Assembly (NCBI GenBank): GCA_009782175.1
Contig: WRKR01000017.1
Span: 1-55,334, forward strand
DNA length: 55,334 nucleotides
Direction: 5' to 3'
From: Cystobacterineae bacterium
GTDB lineage: Bacteria; Myxococcota; Myxococcia; Myxococcales; Myxococcaceae
Part shown: in pieces, positions 14,138 to 44,870 of the stretch
Layout: each line of letters opens with the position of its first letter
Numbering within the stretch: the stretch's first letter is position 1
Notes under the pieces: model-generated
The model's input: the letters and a program-made list of their open reading frames with translations, nothing else
Told to the model about the DNA's origin: nothing
Databases searched by the model: none
Translations under genes and position numbers: made by a program

Positions 14138-14643
14138 GACAAAACACCCCCCCAAAACGCCTCTATAACCGAGTGGATGTTGTTTGGAATTGCGCCACAC
14201 CCATAGAGCTGCCATGGATGCGCTTTGGAAAACGCTGGGCTTTGGCTTTTTTGAGAGGCCTGCACTTGCACGGCTGTACACTTTCCCTCGCATGGCTCAG
14301 CAATGCCGCCATGAGAAAACTCAATGCCCAATTCCGCGGACAAAACAAAACGACGGATGTGCTTTCCTTCCCCTCCGGAGAAATGCCCCCCAACCAGGCC
14401 TATGCCGGGCTGAAAAATGCCGCCACCTTTGTAGGCTTTCTGGGAGATATAGCCATTGCCCTGCCCGTGGCTTGCCGCCAAGCCCAACAATGGGGCACCC
14501 GCCCCCAAACAGAAGCCAAACTCTACCTCGCCCACGGCCTCCTGCATTTGCTGGGACACAACCACCACGCCAAAGCCGATGCACGAAAAATGGCCCTCTG
14601 GGAACGCAAACTGCTTCAACATAAGGGCATGTTGCTGCGCTAG
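14134..14643 (+). CDS. ybeY: Endoribonuclease YbeY
   Basis: YbeY is a zinc metalloendoribonuclease needed for 16S rRNA 3'-end maturation and ribosome quality control. The 169-residue protein has the H3XH5XH zinc motif in HGLLHLLGHNHH and the upstream LNAQFRGQNKTTDVLSFP block. It is translationally coupled to the PgpH gene. Its stop codon TAG (14641-14643) is also the first three bases of a palindromic repeat element. Confidence 0.94.
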   Translation: MRQNTPPKRLYNRVDVVWNCATPIELPWMRFGKRWALAFLRGLHLHGCTLSLAWLSNAAMRKLNAQFRGQNKTTDVLSFPSGEMPPNQAYAGLKNAATFVGFLGDIAIALPVACRQAQQWGTRPQTEAKLYLAHGLLHLLGHNHHAKADARKMALWERKLLQHKGMLLR

Positions 14644-37535: not shown

Positions 37536-37892
37536 ATGGTGATGCCAGGAGCAAGTGTCAATTGGGATGATTTGAAGAGCAATTGCGGGGAAGATGAGGA
37601 TTTGATGCGTGAGCTTATCCACATTTTTCTTTCCGAGAGTCCGCAGATGCTGGAAGATATTCGAAGGAGTTGGAAGGAGAAGGATGCGGCAGCCCTCAAG
37701 CGTACAGCCCATCGCCTCAAAGGCTCCTTGGTGAGTTTAGCTGCCAACCCTGCAGCCCAATGTGCGAGTGTTTTGGAGCAAATGGGCTATGAAGTGAAGC
37801 TTGAGGGTGCAGACCAGGTGATGGCTGAGCTGGAGAGCAAAATGTCAGAGTTGAGCGCTGAGCTGAGGCGGATGACGCAAAGCCACAGCTAG
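37536..37892 (+). CDS. Orphan HPt (histidine phosphotransfer) domain protein
   Basis: The 118 residues are essentially a single four-helix HPt domain: LMRELIHIFLSESPQMLEDI, then KRTAHRLKGSLVSLAANP with phospho-acceptor H59, then a closing helix (VMAELESKMSELSAELRRM). HPt proteins relay phosphate between a hybrid sensor kinase and a response regulator. Neither partner is in the window, so it serves a phosphorelay encoded elsewhere. ATG 37536 or ATG 37542 could be the start; the Shine-Dalgarno (GAGGTA) is weak. The stop TAG starts TAGAGCGCTTT, resembling the ends of the palindromic elements. Confidence 0.88.
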   Translation: MVMPGASVNWDDLKSNCGEDEDLMRELIHIFLSESPQMLEDIRRSWKEKDAAALKRTAHRLKGSLVSLAANPAAQCASVLEQMGYEVKLEGADQVMAELESKMSELSAELRRMTQSHS

Positions 37893-38062: not shown

Positions 38063-38097
38063 TAGCTATGTATATGTTGGCAACTAAATGGCTTGGC
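38063..38097 (+). repeat. Copy 2 of the TAGCTATG/GTTGGC/ATGGCTTGGC motif set
   Basis: TAGCTATG (38063-38070), GTTGGC (38076-38081) and ATGGCTTGGC (38088-38097) match the blocks at 37373-37396. It covers a possible TTG start at 38093, which argues that the FHA protein starts further downstream. Confidence 0.45.
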
Positions 38098-38146
38098 CTG
38101 TATAAAGAAACTTGACCTGCAATCTCAAAATGTATTTCTTCTTCCC

Positions 38147-39601
38147 GTGGGTTTTATTTTAACGACAAAATCTGGTGCTGTTGAGGGCAAAGAATTCGTC
38201 TTCGAGGACGGTGGCGAAGCCCGCATTGGCCGCACGAATGGGAACGATGTGGTTGTCAACGACAATAAAGCATCGCGGAACCATGCGCGCATAATAGAGA
38301 CGGAGGAAGGTTGTTTTATTGAAGATTTAGGCAGTGCCAACGGGACTTTTATCAACGGGGAGGAGATTCAGGAGTCTGCCTTTTTGTCCTCTGGGGATGT
38401 GATAGGCATTGGAGGTGGCGGGGAGCTGGTTTTTTGGGACCAGACTGCAGGAGCGCCTGGAGATGTTGCCTCTGAAGGAGACAGCACCGTTATTAAGTCC
38501 ACGGAGGAATTGGCCGCGGAGCGTCAGGCCCAGTCTGCCTTGGCCGTGGCTTCGAAGGTGCCACGAAAGCCTGTGCGAAAAAACCCCGCCACGCACTCGC
38601 CCCAGTTGGTTGCTATACCCAAGCGCGCAAACCAACTGGCCTCGACAGCTCAAGCCTCTGCCGCCGAGCGTGCGCGCAAACAGCGTGAGGCACAGAAGAG
38701 TTTTTTGGGCAGGCTCCACTATGCTTTTTTGGCCTTAGACGCCAAAAAGCGCCGGACGCTGCTGATCAGCTTGGCTTTGACAGGTATGGTTATTCTGCTT
38801 GGGGTATTTTTTCTCATGCATTCAGGCCCCACCACCTTTTTCCAGAGCAATGAGCCCAAGGTTTTAGAGGTGGGTGGACAACCCATTGAAGACAGTTTTG
38901 GCGTTGGCAAAGAGGTGAAATGGACCAATGTGGATTCCAAGCAATTTGTATTCCATGTCATTGCCCCCGGAAAAGCCGTTGCCATTGTCCGTTATTATGC
39001 CAAGGACATTTCTTCAGAAGAAGTGAACATTTTGTTTAACAGTGCAAGCCTGGGTTATGTTCCCGCGGATACTTTGGATACGCGGGAAATTGAGTTGGTG
39101 GTTTCTCCCCACCATATACGCAATAATGAGATGAATACCCTGATGTTTGACAATGTACGCAACCCCCCGGAGAAGGATACTTGGCGCATTTGGGGTATAT
39201 CCGTAGAAATAGAGCCTGTTCCCCTCTTTACGAGTGAGAGTGAAGCCAGTGCGGAAGTGGCCAAAGCCATTCAATCCGCCCAGCAAACCTATGATGCGAA
39301 AAGCGTTGCGCCTCCAAACCTCTATTATGCTTGGAAAGCCTATAGGCGAGCTTGGCTCATTGAAGAGTCCCTCGACATAAAAGACATTCGGGAATATGAG
39401 TTTATTTTGGCCAAATATAGAGAAATTCGGCTTGAGTTGGACAAGCGCTGCGACAGATATGTGCTTGAAGTCCACAAAATTCTCAACACCTCTCCCCAAA
39501 GAGACAAGCTGGTCACCGTGTTGGAAAATATACTCCAACACTTTCCAGAGGCAGACCACCGCTGCCACCGCGAAGCCAAGCGCGTCCTGGAAATGCTCTA
39601 G
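38147..39601 (+). CDS. FHA-domain membrane protein
   Basis: An N-terminal FHA domain (about 1-95) binds phosphothreonine peptides. It shows ARIGRTNGNDVVVNDNKASR, the SRNHARI core and DLGSANGTFINGEEI. After a Lys/Arg/Ala linker comes one membrane helix (RTLLISLALTGMVILLGVFF, about 207-228), then a probably extracytoplasmic C-terminal domain of about 250 residues, beta-rich then helical (LYYAWKAYRRAWLIEESLD, ILQHFPEADHRCHREAKRVL). The start is uncertain: GTG 38147 puts the FHA fold at the very N-terminus as is usual, TTG 38093 would add 18 residues, and neither has a Shine-Dalgarno. It precedes the Tad-like genes and may regulate them. The stop codon TAG lies inside a palindromic element end. 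Confidence 0.8.
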   Translation: MGFILTTKSGAVEGKEFVFEDGGEARIGRTNGNDVVVNDNKASRNHARIIETEEGCFIEDLGSANGTFINGEEIQESAFLSSGDVIGIGGGGELVFWDQTAGAPGDVASEGDSTVIKSTEELAAERQAQSALAVASKVPRKPVRKNPATHSPQLVAIPKRANQLASTAQASAAERARKQREAQKSFLGRLHYAFLALDAKKRRTLLISLALTGMVILLGVFFLMHSGPTTFFQSNEPKVLEVGGQPIEDSFGVGKEVKWTNVDSKQFVFHVIAPGKAVAIVRYYAKDISSEEVNILFNSASLGYVPADTLDTREIELVVSPHHIRNNEMNTLMFDNVRNPPEKDTWRIWGISVEIEPVPLFTSESEASAEVAKAIQSAQQTYDAKSVAPPNLYYAWKAYRRAWLIEESLDIKDIREYEFILAKYREIRLELDKRCDRYVLEVHKILNTSPQRDKLVTVLENILQHFPEADHRCHREAKRVLEML

Positions 39602-39782: not shown

Positions 39783-40562
39783 ATGAGCCAGAAGAGGACA
39801 AAAAGAGGGCGAGGGCAGCTCGGTCAAGCCGCTGTGGAAACGGCCATTGTGATGCCACTGTTTGTGTTTTTGATTTTGGGCATTATTCAATTGGCGTTGA
39901 TGCACCAAGCCCGCTCGATGACCAAATATGCAGCCTTCAAAGCTGTGCGCGCGGGCATTTTGCACAATGCCGACAAGAAGGCCATGGAGCTGGCGGCATT
40001 GGCTGTGCTTTTGCCTGTTATCAGTGAAAAATCAGGGGGCTCCCAAGGGGCAGAAACCGTAAAAAGCACAAGAAGTGCCTCGGATTATGCCAAGAAGATG
40101 GGCGACCTGAAGAACAATCAATTTCCTGAAAACAGCGGTTTGAAATATGCCCAGGTTGCCATTTGTTCCCCCACCTCAGGCGAAGCTGGAAGCCAGCCTG
40201 GTCAAGGAACCAACCTTTTTGATTATCCTGAGACGCCCAACTCTTTGCAAAAGCTCAAGTCCAAAAAACTCTCTATAGAGTTGACTTTTAATTATAGGCT
40301 CTTCATCCCCTTTGTGGACAGAGTCATTTTTTATATTTCTCGAGGGCAAGAGGCACAACACGCGACCTTGTTTAAAGATGTGGTGCGCATGAACACCACG
40401 GCCACCGGCGTCACGGGGCCCAAGGACAGCCCCGAAAGCATAAGAAAAAGCTTGGCCAACCAAAAGGTTTATGTGGTGCCCATTCGCGCCAAATATGCCT
40501 TGCGCATGCAGTCTGACTTTGTGACGAGCAATTTGAGCGGTCAAAGTGAGTGCGGAAATTGA
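39783..40562 (+). CDS. TadE-like pilus/secretion-associated protein
   Basis: A 259-residue protein with a basic N-terminus, then GQAAVETAIVMPLFVFLILG and a continuing hydrophobic helix (about 13-42), the hallmark of TadE-like pseudopilins (type IVb prepilin-like signal with Glu near +5). The rest is extracytoplasmic and unrecognised. A GAAGGA lies upstream of the ATG. It is first of five closely spaced genes of the same general type. TadE proteins are minor components of Flp/Tad pili, but no TadA, TadB, TadC, CpaA or secretin gene is in the window. Confidence 0.82.
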   Translation: MSQKRTKRGRGQLGQAAVETAIVMPLFVFLILGIIQLALMHQARSMTKYAAFKAVRAGILHNADKKAMELAALAVLLPVISEKSGGSQGAETVKSTRSASDYAKKMGDLKNNQFPENSGLKYAQVAICSPTSGEAGSQPGQGTNLFDYPETPNSLQKLKSKKLSIELTFNYRLFIPFVDRVIFYISRGQEAQHATLFKDVVRMNTTATGVTGPKDSPESIRKSLANQKVYVVPIRAKYALRMQSDFVTSNLSGQSECGN

Positions 40563-40580
40563 TTTTGTGGAGGAGAGCCC

Positions 40581-42293
40581 GTGGAAAGCACCATTCAACT
40601 TAAAACCCTAAAACCCCGGCAACACAACAAGGGCCTTGCTCGAAAACAGCGCCAACGCAGAGGGCAGGTGATGGTGCTGGGGTGTGTGACCATGCTCTTG
40701 CTGGCCACCACTTTGATGATGAGTTTTTCCATTGCCAATGTGGTACATGAGCGCATCCGCATCCAGTCCCATGCCGATGCCATGGCTTTTTCCATGGCCG
40801 TGGTGGAGGCGCGCGCCATGAATTATTTGGCCTATTCCAACCGGGCCATTGCCGCTGCCTTTGTGTCGATGACCAGCGTCCATGCCTATATGGCCATTGC
40901 CAGCTCCTCCATGCCCTGGCTCTGGGGTGGCGCCATCGCCATGTTTACTTCAGCAGCTTTGGAGTTTGCAGCCTGCCCCCCATTCCAATGGCAGCATTGC
41001 TTGCATGGCATTCGGGTGTTGATTAGGGCCATTAAATATATCATGGCTGTCAACAAATATTCTAAAAAAATAAACAACATGGAAGACCCTTTCAACAAAG
41101 CAGTGGAGGCTTTTACCCAGCTGGCTGACGACCTTCATGCCTCACAACGAAAGGCGGTGACTGAAGCCAAAAACACCATCAGATATGGAAAAGAGCTGAA
41201 GAAACTGGAAGACACCAATGCAGAATGTGCCACAAGCATTCATGATGGGGTGGGCAAAATTAACGAGGCTGAGTTTGCCTGCGCTCTGGAAGGCTCACCT
41301 TTGGGTGAACCCAGTGGCGGCATTCGAAACTGCCCCTCCAAGTCGGCGATAGATAACCGCCGTGAAATAATGAGCAATGTGGTCAATGCCGCACGTCCGC
41401 CGTTTTTGCGCATGACGCATCTGTTTATTATCAATATGGGCACTCAAATTCCGCTTTTTTTCCATGAGGAATATTTGAAAGATCTGCTCGGTGAAAACAT
41501 TCCCGACCCCGATGGCATCGGCATTGGCATTCCCTATACAGTCTATGGTCAGCTGACCGACAATTTTTGCAGTGCAGCCAAGAAAGATTCAAAAGGAAAG
41601 TTTTCTTGCGCACGTGCAGGAATGGGAGTTGTTCTTTTCACGCAAGTCATTGACATGCCGGGCATTGGTGTTGCCTTGGGTGTGACGAGTGCCGGTTCGA
41701 GCAAAAGTCCATCAGGCAACAACCACACCTGGGGGCACAAGGGAGAGAAACACGACAAATACAAGGGACTCTTTGCTGATGACAAGGATGACTGCACAAG
41801 CACCGGCAACTGTTTCATCAACTATCGCCTGAGTGATAAAGAGCGTGGTTGGGGTCAGCCCGCTGTCTATTCTTATGTCACGCAGGAATTGGCGATGACA
41901 ACCGACCAGAAGAACAAATGCAACAAGGCGAAGCGCCCCTGGGAAATAAACAGCAAGAGTGAGATAACCCTCAACCACGGCCAGAGGCCACAAGGAAAGC
42001 TGAAGTTTTCACCCAACAGAGAGGGGGCGGCGCTCAGCAAGGCCTTGGTTTATTTTCACCGCATGGAAAACTGGAAATTTGCCCCCAACCTTTTCGACCC
42101 TTATTGGCGCGCCAAGCTGCATCCCTTTAGCCAAAACGAAATGAAAGATGTTTTGAAGAAAGCAGGCTCTTCCGGCGGCCTTGGAGCGCTGGGCAGTCTT
42201 GCCGGCATCGGGGGAAATACAGATGCGGATTTGCCCGGAATGGGCGTCCCCGCTGAGGGCAAATTCGGCCTAACGAAGGAGCAGGAGAAATGA
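40581..42293 (+). CDS. TadG-like (Tad-domain) membrane protein
   Basis: This encodes 570 residues from a GTG start with GGAGGAG at 40569-40575. It has a basic leader, then RRGQVMVLGCVTMLLLATTL and a following helix (about 27-55), the putative Flp pilus-assembly TadG N-terminal region. A second hydrophobic stretch is IAAAFVSMTSVHAYMAIASS (about 90-118). The long remainder is extracytoplasmic, with several cysteines. It overlaps the next gene by ATGA (42290-42293). It belongs to the pilin-like cluster; the role is inferred from family and context. Confidence 0.78.
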   Translation: MESTIQLKTLKPRQHNKGLARKQRQRRGQVMVLGCVTMLLLATTLMMSFSIANVVHERIRIQSHADAMAFSMAVVEARAMNYLAYSNRAIAAAFVSMTSVHAYMAIASSSMPWLWGGAIAMFTSAALEFAACPPFQWQHCLHGIRVLIRAIKYIMAVNKYSKKINNMEDPFNKAVEAFTQLADDLHASQRKAVTEAKNTIRYGKELKKLEDTNAECATSIHDGVGKINEAEFACALEGSPLGEPSGGIRNCPSKSAIDNRREIMSNVVNAARPPFLRMTHLFIINMGTQIPLFFHEEYLKDLLGENIPDPDGIGIGIPYTVYGQLTDNFCSAAKKDSKGKFSCARAGMGVVLFTQVIDMPGIGVALGVTSAGSSKSPSGNNHTWGHKGEKHDKYKGLFADDKDDCTSTGNCFINYRLSDKERGWGQPAVYSYVTQELAMTTDQKNKCNKAKRPWEINSKSEITLNHGQRPQGKLKFSPNREGAALSKALVYFHRMENWKFAPNLFDPYWRAKLHPFSQNEMKDVLKKAGSSGGLGALGSLAGIGGNTDADLPGMGVPAEGKFGLTKEQEK

Positions 42294-43540
42294 GCACGCC
42301 AAAGACAGGCTCCAAAGAGAGAAGCCCCAAAGCCATGCCCCGCCGCCGAGGACAAGCCACGGTTGAGTTGGCCATACTCATGGTGGCGCTGGTGCCCACC
42401 TTTCTCTATGTGCTCGCTTCAGACGACCTCATGCGCTTTCGCCTGGACTTGCAAGAAGTGGTGGTTTCCAGCCCCTGGGACTATACGCACCTCGACTATC
42501 TAGAGAAGCAAGTCAAAGCCAGTCCATTGGAGGGCCATCTGCAAAACTACTATGAAGGCCTGAGCTCCAGAACAGGCCCCATGACTTCTGTGAATTGGAA
42601 GAAGACCAACCTTGGATGCAAGGAAGACCAAGACATAGCCACACACCTCAACGGTTCCTCAGGTCCTATCAAAAAGCTGACGGGAGGGGGAGGGCTATTA
42701 GATGGTTTGTTTGGCGGTTTGTTAGGCGGCTCAAGCGGCTCTAAGGACTCGAACAGCCCCAAGAGCTCCAACTCAGGCGGCATGGGTGGTGTTCTGGATA
42801 TGGTGGATGGTTTTCTAGACAAAGCAGAAGGCCTTCTCGACGATTCCAATAAAATGATGGACGGTTTGGGCAATATGGATGTGGGTGATATGCTGAACAA
42901 TTTGGGCCAAAGCTTATTGTCCAATGTCATGGGCAGTGTAGTAAACAGTGTCCTGGGCCTGCTGGGGATGGGGGCGCCCGAATATACGGTGAACCACGGG
43001 GGGCTTTATACCTGCAAAGCCAAGATGAGCGTCACCAACACGGGACTCTTGCAAAACTTTTTTCAAGAATGGGCCGGAAACACCAAGGTAACAGACAAAG
43101 CGAAGGGACAAGGCGTGTGGGAATTCAACGAGCAACGCTTCTCTGTCATGGCAGACACCTGGGCCCTCACCAAAGGGGATCAAGATGCAAGCCGCAGCTC
43201 TCTTTTAGGTGGACGCGTCCAAAGTGTTTATAAAGGTTCATCTAAACATGGCAATGCAGAGTCCAAGGCGAATGATCTCGCCAAAAAAGGAGAAGACGAA
43301 AAAATCATCACGAAATGGGTCATCACCATGGACTGGCCCAGCCTCGGGGGCGTCTTGGGCGGTTATGGTGATAACACAGGGACAGCCGAAACAGAATTTA
43401 AAGGAACCAAAGACTGCTCCTCTCCAGACATTGAGGGTTTTGAGTCTACCCCATGGGGAAGAAAAGGTGCCGCGGGCAAAACCTACCAAGAGGTTTGCGG
43501 CAATCGCCAAAAAACCTATATGGGACGCGAACTGAAATAG
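42290..43540 (+). CDS. TadE-like protein with Gly/Ser/Asp-rich middle region
   Basis: A 416-residue protein beginning with a basic stretch and RRRGQATVELAILMVALVPT, a TadE-like prepilin-type helix (about 19-42). Residues about 125-230 are unusually Gly, Ser, Leu and Asp rich (GGGGLLDGLFGGLLGGSSGS, GLGNMDVGDMLNN), with a repeated amphipathic pattern. The C-terminal part has paired cysteines. It is coupled to the upstream gene by ATGA. The low-complexity block could be a surface-exposed flexible or self-associating segment (inference). Confidence 0.72.
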   Translation: MSTPKTGSKERSPKAMPRRRGQATVELAILMVALVPTFLYVLASDDLMRFRLDLQEVVVSSPWDYTHLDYLEKQVKASPLEGHLQNYYEGLSSRTGPMTSVNWKKTNLGCKEDQDIATHLNGSSGPIKKLTGGGGLLDGLFGGLLGGSSGSKDSNSPKSSNSGGMGGVLDMVDGFLDKAEGLLDDSNKMMDGLGNMDVGDMLNNLGQSLLSNVMGSVVNSVLGLLGMGAPEYTVNHGGLYTCKAKMSVTNTGLLQNFFQEWAGNTKVTDKAKGQGVWEFNEQRFSVMADTWALTKGDQDASRSSLLGGRVQSVYKGSSKHGNAESKANDLAKKGEDEKIITKWVITMDWPSLGGVLGGYGDNTGTAETEFKGTKDCSSPDIEGFESTPWGRKGAAGKTYQEVCGNRQKTYMGRELK

Positions 43541-43560
43541 CGCACAAGGAGAAAAGGGCA

Positions 43561-44421
43561 ATGGCGAGCGGGCCTCAAGCTATAAAACTCCCCATAGGGA
43601 AAAGCCTGCTTGGCGTGGCGGTGTTGGGCGCATGCCTGGGTGTGGGCCTGGCTTGGATGGAGCGCCGCTCTGACGAAGAAAAGCTGGAGTCCATCCTCCA
43701 AGCGCCTGAAGCCTTGTCCCCCGTGCTTTTCCCTGAGGCCCCACCTGCCCCCTTGGAAGAGGAAACAGAAAGCCCACCCCCTCTGCCTGTGGCCATGCAA
43801 GGCTTGCCTGTTTATCCGGGCAGCACCCCCCAAAGCTTTCACTCCACCGTGCTTGCAGATGGAAAACCTGTGGAAATGGCTTGGTTTTCTACCACGGACA
43901 CCCCGGCGCAACTTCGCGCCTTCTATGAGAAAGAGTTTAAACTGCGAGGCCTCCACCATGTGTCCCATGAGTATAGCCCTTTTGCCGGCTACATGGGCTA
44001 TATGGACTGGTTTGAAGAAGAGCTGCACTTGGTTTCCTATATACGCCAGGGGGAGCAAACCATGGTATTTCCTTCGCGCAGCAGGCCGGCCTCAGAGGTT
44101 GAAGGAGAGCAGCTGCCTGAAGAGGTTCCCGTACACCCCCGAGCGAGTGTGGCGAAAACCATTATATTTGTGGAGCCTGAAGGCCAAAGCCGCCTCTCCT
44201 ATTCTGCCCTTGTTGAAAACCACAGCCTGCTAGAGGTGAAACAGTTTTATAAAGAGGCCCTGCTGGCCAAAGGCTGGAAAAACATTCAAGAGAAAGAAGA
44301 GGGAGGGCGCAGCAACCTGGAAGCCTCCAACGAGCGGATGGTGGCCAATTTTTCTTTTGAGCCAAAGCAAAATAACGTGGGAATATATTTGTTGTTAATG
44401 GGCAAAGCCCCTGAAAAATAG
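43561..44421 (+). CDS. Membrane-anchored protein with a duplicated domain, unknown function
   Basis: The ATG at 43561 has AAGGAG at about 43547 and gives 286 residues. One N-terminal helix (SLLGVAVLGACLGVGLAW, about 13-31) is followed by a Pro/Glu linker. Two related domains then follow, at about 75-165 (LPVYPGSTPQSF, QLRAFYEKEFKLRGL) and about 180-285 (VPVHPRASVAKT, VKQFYKEALLAKGWKN), sharing a V-x-P-x-(G/R)(S/A) opening and an FY(K/E)E helix ending in G(L/W). No family is named. It sits between the TadE-like gene and the Flp-like pilin gene, so it may serve the same surface structure. Confidence 0.7.
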   Translation: MASGPQAIKLPIGKSLLGVAVLGACLGVGLAWMERRSDEEKLESILQAPEALSPVLFPEAPPAPLEEETESPPPLPVAMQGLPVYPGSTPQSFHSTVLADGKPVEMAWFSTTDTPAQLRAFYEKEFKLRGLHHVSHEYSPFAGYMGYMDWFEEELHLVSYIRQGEQTMVFPSRSRPASEVEGEQLPEEVPVHPRASVAKTIIFVEPEGQSRLSYSALVENHSLLEVKQFYKEALLAKGWKNIQEKEEGGRSNLEASNERMVANFSFEPKQNNVGIYLLLMGKAPEK

Positions 44422-44430
44422 GAGAAAACA

Positions 44431-44619
44431 ATGTCGACACCCAGGAAAAGCAGGCGCCGCCTTCAGCGCGGGCAAGCCATGGTAGAATATAGCCTCATTG
44501 GGCACGTCTTAATGGTGGGCGGCGTAGCAGCGGCTTGGCCGTTTTTTACGGTGCTGATGAATGCCTTTAATGCCTATTATCAAGGCATATTTTTCGTCCT
44601 CACCTCACCTGTGCCTTAA
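44431..44619 (+). CDS. Flp-like type IVb pilin
   Basis: A 62-residue protein with a short basic leader (MSTPRKSRRRLQRG) and the exact type IVb prepilin processing pattern G/xxxxEY (G-QAMVEYSLI), followed by a hydrophobic helix (LIGHVLMVGGVAAAWPFFTV). Flp pilins are this size and are cleaved after the glycine by a TadV/CpaA peptidase. AGGAG lies 6 bases before the ATG. It ends the Tad-like cluster; the stop TAA is the first three bases of a palindromic element. Confidence 0.75.
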   Translation: MSTPRKSRRRLQRGQAMVEYSLIGHVLMVGGVAAAWPFFTVLMNAFNAYYQGIFFVLTSPVP

Positions 44620-44870
44620 GGCCGGTTCCACTTTGACATGATCTCTTCGTTGGGCTCCGGTTTCGCTCAGGTCATGCACTTAAGTGCACTCCCATCGCGC
44701 CTGACCCTCGGAATTGGGGCCTCGCCCGCCTCGACCTCATGTCCAAGCGGAGCGGAGAGAATGAAGAAAAAGCATGCTTTTTCTTCATTCATGGAGCGGA
44801 GTGCAGGCGAGTGCAACGAGCCTCAATTGAAACCGGTCTGGAGAATCAATTTAACTTTGAAGCGGCTTAG
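44617..44870. repeat. Mosaic palindromic element C
   Basis: It is closely related to the element at 14641-15021. Both share the GCCTGACCCTCGG...TTGGGGCCTCGCC segment, the TGCACTTAAGTGCA palindrome (44675-44688) and GAAACCGGTCTGGAG (44829-44843). Here the AT-rich hairpin is a perfect 32-bp palindrome (44759-44790). Two hairpin modules present in the other copy are missing, as if cleanly removed. The left end TAAGGCCGGTTCCACTT recurs directly at 44867-44883, so a partial second copy may follow. The rest of the gap to 45015 holds no gene. Confidence 0.85.

Follow-up and report, generated by a model that had tools for sequence, protein, structure and literature searches.

A five-gene pilin operon

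The DNA analysed here (the window; 55,334 nucleotides of contig WRKR01000017.1, Cystobacterineae bacterium assembly GCA_009782175.1) carries at positions 39783-44619 five consecutive genes that most probably form tip3, a tip operon of the Kil predation pilus known from Myxococcus xanthus. The genome is small (2.70 Mb in 65 contigs, 99.95% complete) when compared with those of other genera in the same family (3.9-13.8 Mb). Contigs of this genome are given as C-numbers, the window cluster lying on C17, and genome-wide statements come from targeted searches of the genome.

The five open reading frames (ORFs) are all on the + strand and are spaced by 10-20 bp or overlap slightly. All are open, and the prepilin cleavage motifs are intact, with Glu at position +5 in genes 1, 3 and 5 (Table 1). 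Specifically, the prepilin start of gene 3 aligns with G/(A,Q)xxxE and has Glu at +5 in 46 of 47 relatives; gene 2 has Leu, not Glu, at that position in 46/47 relatives, with the cleavage Gly present. GspK-type tip pilins likewise lack Glu at +5, as does KilN. Pfam and NCBIfam returned nothing useful for genes 3-5, gene 3 being without a Pfam match.

An earlier note on this DNA had described the cluster as two TadE-like proteins, one TadG-like protein, a membrane-anchored protein with a duplicated domain and a Flp prepilin, preceded by an FHA membrane protein and an HPt protein and lacking a motor. The ORFs, domains, prepilin motifs, duplication and both upstream genes are confirmed. With regard to the motor, T2SSE and T2SSF searches of the genome placed none in the window; all T2SSE matches lie on C20, C29 and C2 and all T2SSF matches on C20, C29 and C12. 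The extent of the cluster is revised: the five genes stand, a likely sixth member (a Cys-rich protein) is added, and the HPt gene is dropped as a conserved neighbour.

Table 1. Coordinates and assignments of the operon genes and of adjacent features in the window (aa, amino acids; TM, transmembrane).
Positions	Strand	Feature	Evidence
39783..40562	+	Gene 1: kilM3-like TadE minor pilin, 259 aa	Pfam TadE E=3.9e-12; cleavage motif LG/QAAVE
40581..42293	+	Gene 2: kilN3-like large TadG-type minor pilin, 570 aa	RG/QVMVL; full-length relatives in Myxococcaceae
42290..43540	+	Gene 3: kilL3-like TadE-type minor pilin with extended C-terminus, 416 aa	RG/QATVE; M. xanthus locus L063 E=1.8e-13
43561..44421	+	Gene 4: inner-membrane-anchored periplasmic protein, two tandem DcrB/Eag-like domains, 286 aa	Fold; internal duplication
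44431..44619	+	Gene 5: putative kilO, 62-aa Flp adapter prepilin	RG/QAMVEY; position orthologous to 59-aa Flp in L063
45015..45248	+	Cys-rich protein, small and secreted (77 aa; twin CX3C pairs); probably a sixth gene of the Tip3 operon	Profile match
44622..44870	.	Dispersed intergenic repeat between kilO and the Cys-rich gene	Some 40 copies genome-wide (2.7 Mb)
38093..39601	+	FHA-TM-periplasmic protein; probably regulates or scaffolds Kil components	FHA E=1.7e-18; start codon uncertain
37536..37892	+	HPt protein, judged not to belong to the system	Hpt E=4.3e-15

Correspondence to tip3 and kilO of Myxococcus xanthus

Scanning named genomes with a TadG-like alignment gave 67 loci, and about 45 Myxococcaceae loci among them share the identical five-gene order, so the cluster is more than a chance association. 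Besides the sister genome, matches came from Corallococcus, Archangium, Myxococcus and other Myxococcaceae. The sister-species locus (L040) belongs to the Cystobacterineae metagenome-assembled genome (MAG) Emb289P3bin65 (same-genus relative G001, 88% complete), the name of which suggests a termite-hindgut origin. A locus labelled Comamonas sp. KCTC 72670 (L053) also contains a Myxococcus-like Tip3 operon, and the label looks wrong.

All five genes have counterparts at one orthologous M. xanthus locus (L063), where the Flp measures exactly 59 aa. The published tip3 cluster of M. xanthus contains KilO (mxan_1150), a 59-aa Flp (Herrou et al. 2025, PMC12075869). Gene 1 shares 47% identity with its L063 counterpart, versus 29-30% with the paralogues at the loci of other M. 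xanthus Tips (L131-L133); gene 2 matches L063 at E=7.6e-78, with paralogues at E of at least 4e-15; and a homologue of gene 4 was found at L063 but at none of the other M. xanthus Tip clusters examined. Based on the 59-aa Flp, the closeness of genes 1 and 2 to L063 and the restriction of gene 4 to that locus, we read the window cluster as tip3 with kilO, and we put at about 90% the probability that its five genes constitute the operon of Tip3 in a split Kil (Tad-type) predation pilus. The putative assignments are kilM3, kilN3, kilL3, an anchored protein without prior description and the adapter pilin kilO, where KilO (and KilP, see below) was matched by length and position and not by published sequence. 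The order kilM-kilN-kilL would follow by analogy with the M. xanthus kil II layout (Tip4, KilK, KilB, KilG and KilH consecutively) and the published numbering.

Genetic work in M. xanthus shows that Tip3 and KilO make up a Kil pilus tip that can be exchanged for others, with KilO as the adapter for Tip3 only and KilK as that for Tips 1, 2 and 4; killing by Tip3 requires the needleless T3SS* (T3SS, type III secretion system), and among the Tips it is Tip3 that shows the lowest activity on laboratory prey (PMC12075869). The separate surface structure suggested by the earlier note therefore gives way to an orthologue of this exchangeable tip. Likeness to the M. xanthus tip3 cluster covers the gene order, the five proteins and the short Flp (PMC12075869), and it extends to the Kil system as a whole, with unlinked core clusters I and II, KilP elsewhere and a T3SS in the genome. 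Unlike in M. xanthus, an FHA-TM gene lies directly upstream of the operon, a Cys-rich gene lies downstream, and this is the sole Tip set of the genome. Tip4 (kilL4/N4/M4), located with KilK in M. xanthus kil cluster II, shares the three-pilin plan but is at most about 30-37% identical over parts, has no gene 4 and is absent from this genome; it also adjoins kilB/G/H, which the window cluster does not. An additional M. xanthus TadG-like gene (L134:2872-5037; 721 aa), apparently without TadE neighbours, could not be placed among Tips 1-4.

The TadE/TadG-type minor pilins and small Flp are also those of a classical tad/flp operon with tadEFG, but here the motor, secretin, CpaB and peptidase lie outside the locus. 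A classical contiguous tad operon was rejected, as TadA, TadB/C, RcpA, RcpC and TadV are not in the locus and the motors are on other contigs; an independent Tad locus was likewise ruled out because no motor or platform lies near the C17 cluster.

Split core, family-wide co-occurrence and a single Tip

The core genes of the Kil pilus were found at two sites. Kil cluster I on C2 comprises an FHA-T2SSE ATPase (KilF), a secretin (KilC), an A24 peptidase (KilA) and further FHA proteins, and kil cluster II on C12 comprises RcpC/CpaB (KilB), two T2SSF proteins (KilG and KilH) and an FHA protein, lacking, unlike in M. xanthus, kilK and Tip4. Together these are the one Tad-type motor set of the genome, and the set has no TadE/TadG minor pilins of its own. 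This arrangement, together with the co-occurrence described below, bears out the earlier proposal of a borrowed distant motor. According to the earlier note, the proposal would fall if a full tad operon existed elsewhere, equipped with pseudopilins of its own and not co-occurring with the cluster; what the searches found instead is the C2/C12 set.

A Flp-family search detected only two Flps in the genome, one being the KilO of the window and the other a protein of 87 aa encoded on C24 (E=0.002). The latter starts with RRGQGMTEY, and the corresponding M. xanthus protein has exactly the 97 aa published for KilP (PMC12075869). Its length and sequence features make it a candidate KilP-like major pilin. 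Two Ser/Thr kinase genes, one with two kinase domains, adjoin the KilP candidate (L163:1657-5900, G000:C24), and these kinases are possible partners of the FHA proteins of the Kil loci.

A T3SS on C22 includes SctN, L, J, Q, V, U, T and R. No secretin was found in that cluster, the KilC search having given three secretin-like matches in the genome, all located elsewhere. Two closely similar Gly-rich proteins of 114-116 aa (L145:10089-10439 and 14193-14537) flank sctV of this genome. The earlier idea of a secretion device under phospho-regulation is only partly upheld, in that M. xanthus Tip3 needs T3SS* and FHA proteins occur across the Kil loci; its HPt component does not stand, as that gene is not conserved.

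Across 58 genomes of the family, KilC orthologues were counted against any KilN match: both were present in 51 genomes, KilC without KilN in 0, KilN without KilC in 2 and neither in 5 (Fisher p=4.6e-6, in a test that ignores the relatedness of the 58 genomes). Of the two genomes with KilN only, G047 is an 80%-complete MAG, and in G026 the KilN match is no more than weak and partial. Throughout the family, KilC and KilN have been lost jointly. Since only weak TadG-like matches occur in several KilC-positive genomes, other Tips rather than Tip3 may serve there. G002, a genome of the same genus, is without KilC, KilG, Tip3 and both Flps; it retains a T3SS, with SctV (82% identity), U, T and Q at L148 (G002:C178), as well as the secretin of another system. 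Its combination of a T3SS without Kil bears on whether Kil and T3SS* always act together.

These distributions also bear on whether the cluster could be a separate pseudopilus or secretion device that borrows the Kil motor, or a type IVa pilus (T4aP) or type II secretion system (T2SS) motor, and is not a tip on KilP. Motors of the T4aP and T2SS types are indeed present (C20 and C29), and the Eag/DcrB-like fold of gene 4 is an effector-chaperoning fold in other systems. Nonetheless, we consider such a device highly improbable given the orthology to M. xanthus tip3 with kilO and its published genetics (PMC12075869), the way in which the cluster follows KilC across the family, and the loss of the cluster together with Kil in G002, which yet keeps another system's secretin.

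With the TadE profile, eight matches were obtained in M. xanthus against one here, and the KilN profile found a single KilN. KilK and Tips other than Tip3 were not found in this genome, nor in its sister G001 (88% complete). Of the four known Tips, this small genome retains only Tip3, together with KilO. That KilK is missing along with Tips 1, 2 and 4 agrees with KilO being the exclusive adapter of Tip3, and it amounts to a natural test of the published adapter model: in this lineage, evolution dropped KilK and its Tips and kept KilO with Tip3. The motorless pilin cluster is in this way explained as a known system in an unusual state, with one Tip in a reduced genome.

Losses of this kind could also mean that the cluster is a relict in a shrinking genome whose Kil pilus no longer works. 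The 2.7 Mb genome size, the disappearance of KilK and the other Tips and the loss of the whole Kil system in G002 would be consistent with such decay. However, the genes are open with cleavage motifs intact, KilP, KilA and all core parts are kept and intact, and KilC and KilG are 80% and 89% identical to those of the sister species. We therefore regard a relict as very unlikely.

Several observations weigh against our reading of a Tip3-KilO tip that works as in M. xanthus. The window Flp is similarly close to KilO (41%) and KilK (37%), and because both of these are short, the name KilO rests on position and length. KilN3 has a long hydrophobic helix at its N-terminus; its model (two long helices and a C-terminal beta sheet) is moderate only (pLDDT, predicted local distance difference test, 70.7), and its fold search returned only helical-bundle look-alikes (Foldseek E of at least 0.8; VIA best Z 6.8). 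The relatedness left out of the Fisher test tempers the co-occurrence. Of the two T3SSs of M. xanthus, one is the orthologue of that on C22, but its identity with mxan_2434-2464 / T3SS* could not be confirmed. Lastly, M. xanthus Tip3 alone kills little or none of three laboratory prey (PMC12075869). Being nearly inactive on such prey, Tip3 as the only Tip would require its bearer to take other prey or to use the pilus otherwise.

Accessory proteins and proposed working

The protein of gene 4 has one TM segment and two homologous periplasmic domains, the profile halves of which align at P=7e-6. Its model consists of two beta-beta-alpha-beta-beta-beta-beta units (mean pLDDT 85). The top fold matches were DcrB, SciW, PA0094 and EagT6 (Z 8.8-10.6, 85-91 residues), above the next rows but not far above; for the C-terminal domain these include DcrB at Z 10.6 (86 residues, 2.1 Angstrom), SciW at Z 9.1 and EagT6 at Z 8.8. 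This periplasmic domain hence shares the fold of the DcrB/EagR (SciW, EagT6) chaperones, and a shared fold shows no function. Unlike those proteins, gene 4 encodes a membrane-anchored tandem pair within a pilus operon, and Pfam gave no DcrB/Eag sequence-family match among 38 gene 4 family members. Gene 4 may have a chaperone-like role.

A profile built from the ORFs that lie between gene 4 and kilO in 29 relatives identified the Cys-rich gene of the window (E=3.6e-12, 42.6 bits; best of 1000 shuffles, 9.4 bits). Here the gene follows kilO, beyond the repeat, whereas in the 29 relatives it precedes it. At L063, gene 4 directly adjoins kilO, and so the Cys-rich gene is absent from that M. xanthus locus. 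Both gene 4 and the Cys-rich protein appear to be operon components not previously described; no mention of the tags mxan_1147-1149 and mxan_1151 was found in the literature searched. Two unstudied proteins of the Tip3 operon are thereby named.

By analogy with M. xanthus, we infer that this organism uses Tip3 in the same manner. KilA and/or another prepilin peptidase would trim KilM3, KilN3, KilL3 and KilO. The three minor pilins may then form a heterotrimeric, detachable spearhead with KilN3 outermost, which KilO would seat on the growing KilP filament, and this filament would be pushed out through the KilC secretin by the KilF ATPase and the KilG/KilH platform. Contact of the tip with prey, in concert with the T3SS*-like export apparatus, would lead to killing and lysis. 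Before assembly, the gene 4 and Cys-rich proteins probably fold, hold or load Tip3 in the periplasm.

It is conceivable that the pilus instead serves adhesion, attaching to host surfaces in gut colonisation and not in predation. This alternative concerns the use of the pilus and not the identity of the genes, and it overlaps with the tip3 assignment. The low activity of Tip3 on laboratory prey (PMC12075869) would fit it, as would the sister MAG if it stems from a termite hindgut as its name suggests; against it, the genome retains the complete Kil core together with an apparatus resembling T3SS*, and no direct sign of host contact was seen. We judge adhesion unlikely. A tentative extension of the tip3 assignment, which we offer as possible but doubtful, is that genome-reduced Myxococcaceae possess a natural Kil pilus with Tip3 and KilO only, directed at a prey or host surface outside the M. 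xanthus assays, in which the membrane-anchored tandem Eag-like chaperone and its Cys-rich partner ready or load the tip for T3SS*-dependent killing.

Upstream, the FHA-TM protein is 63% identical in the sister species (L040) and lies close to the operon in 15 related loci, most of them from genera other than Myxococcus and Corallococcus; its assigned role, like those of gene 4 and the Cys-rich protein, is our inference. The HPt protein was ruled out as a cluster regulator because it is not a conserved neighbour, with no homologue in the flanks (up to 9 kb) of related loci. Ahead of the FHA-TM gene, the sister species encodes another FHA protein (L040:5638-6405), 31% identical to an FHA protein of kil cluster I (L005:13118-13825) and missing from the window. 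The dispersed repeat downstream of kilO has no Rfam family match; several of its copies lie at contig ends, and it therefore probably limits the assembly.

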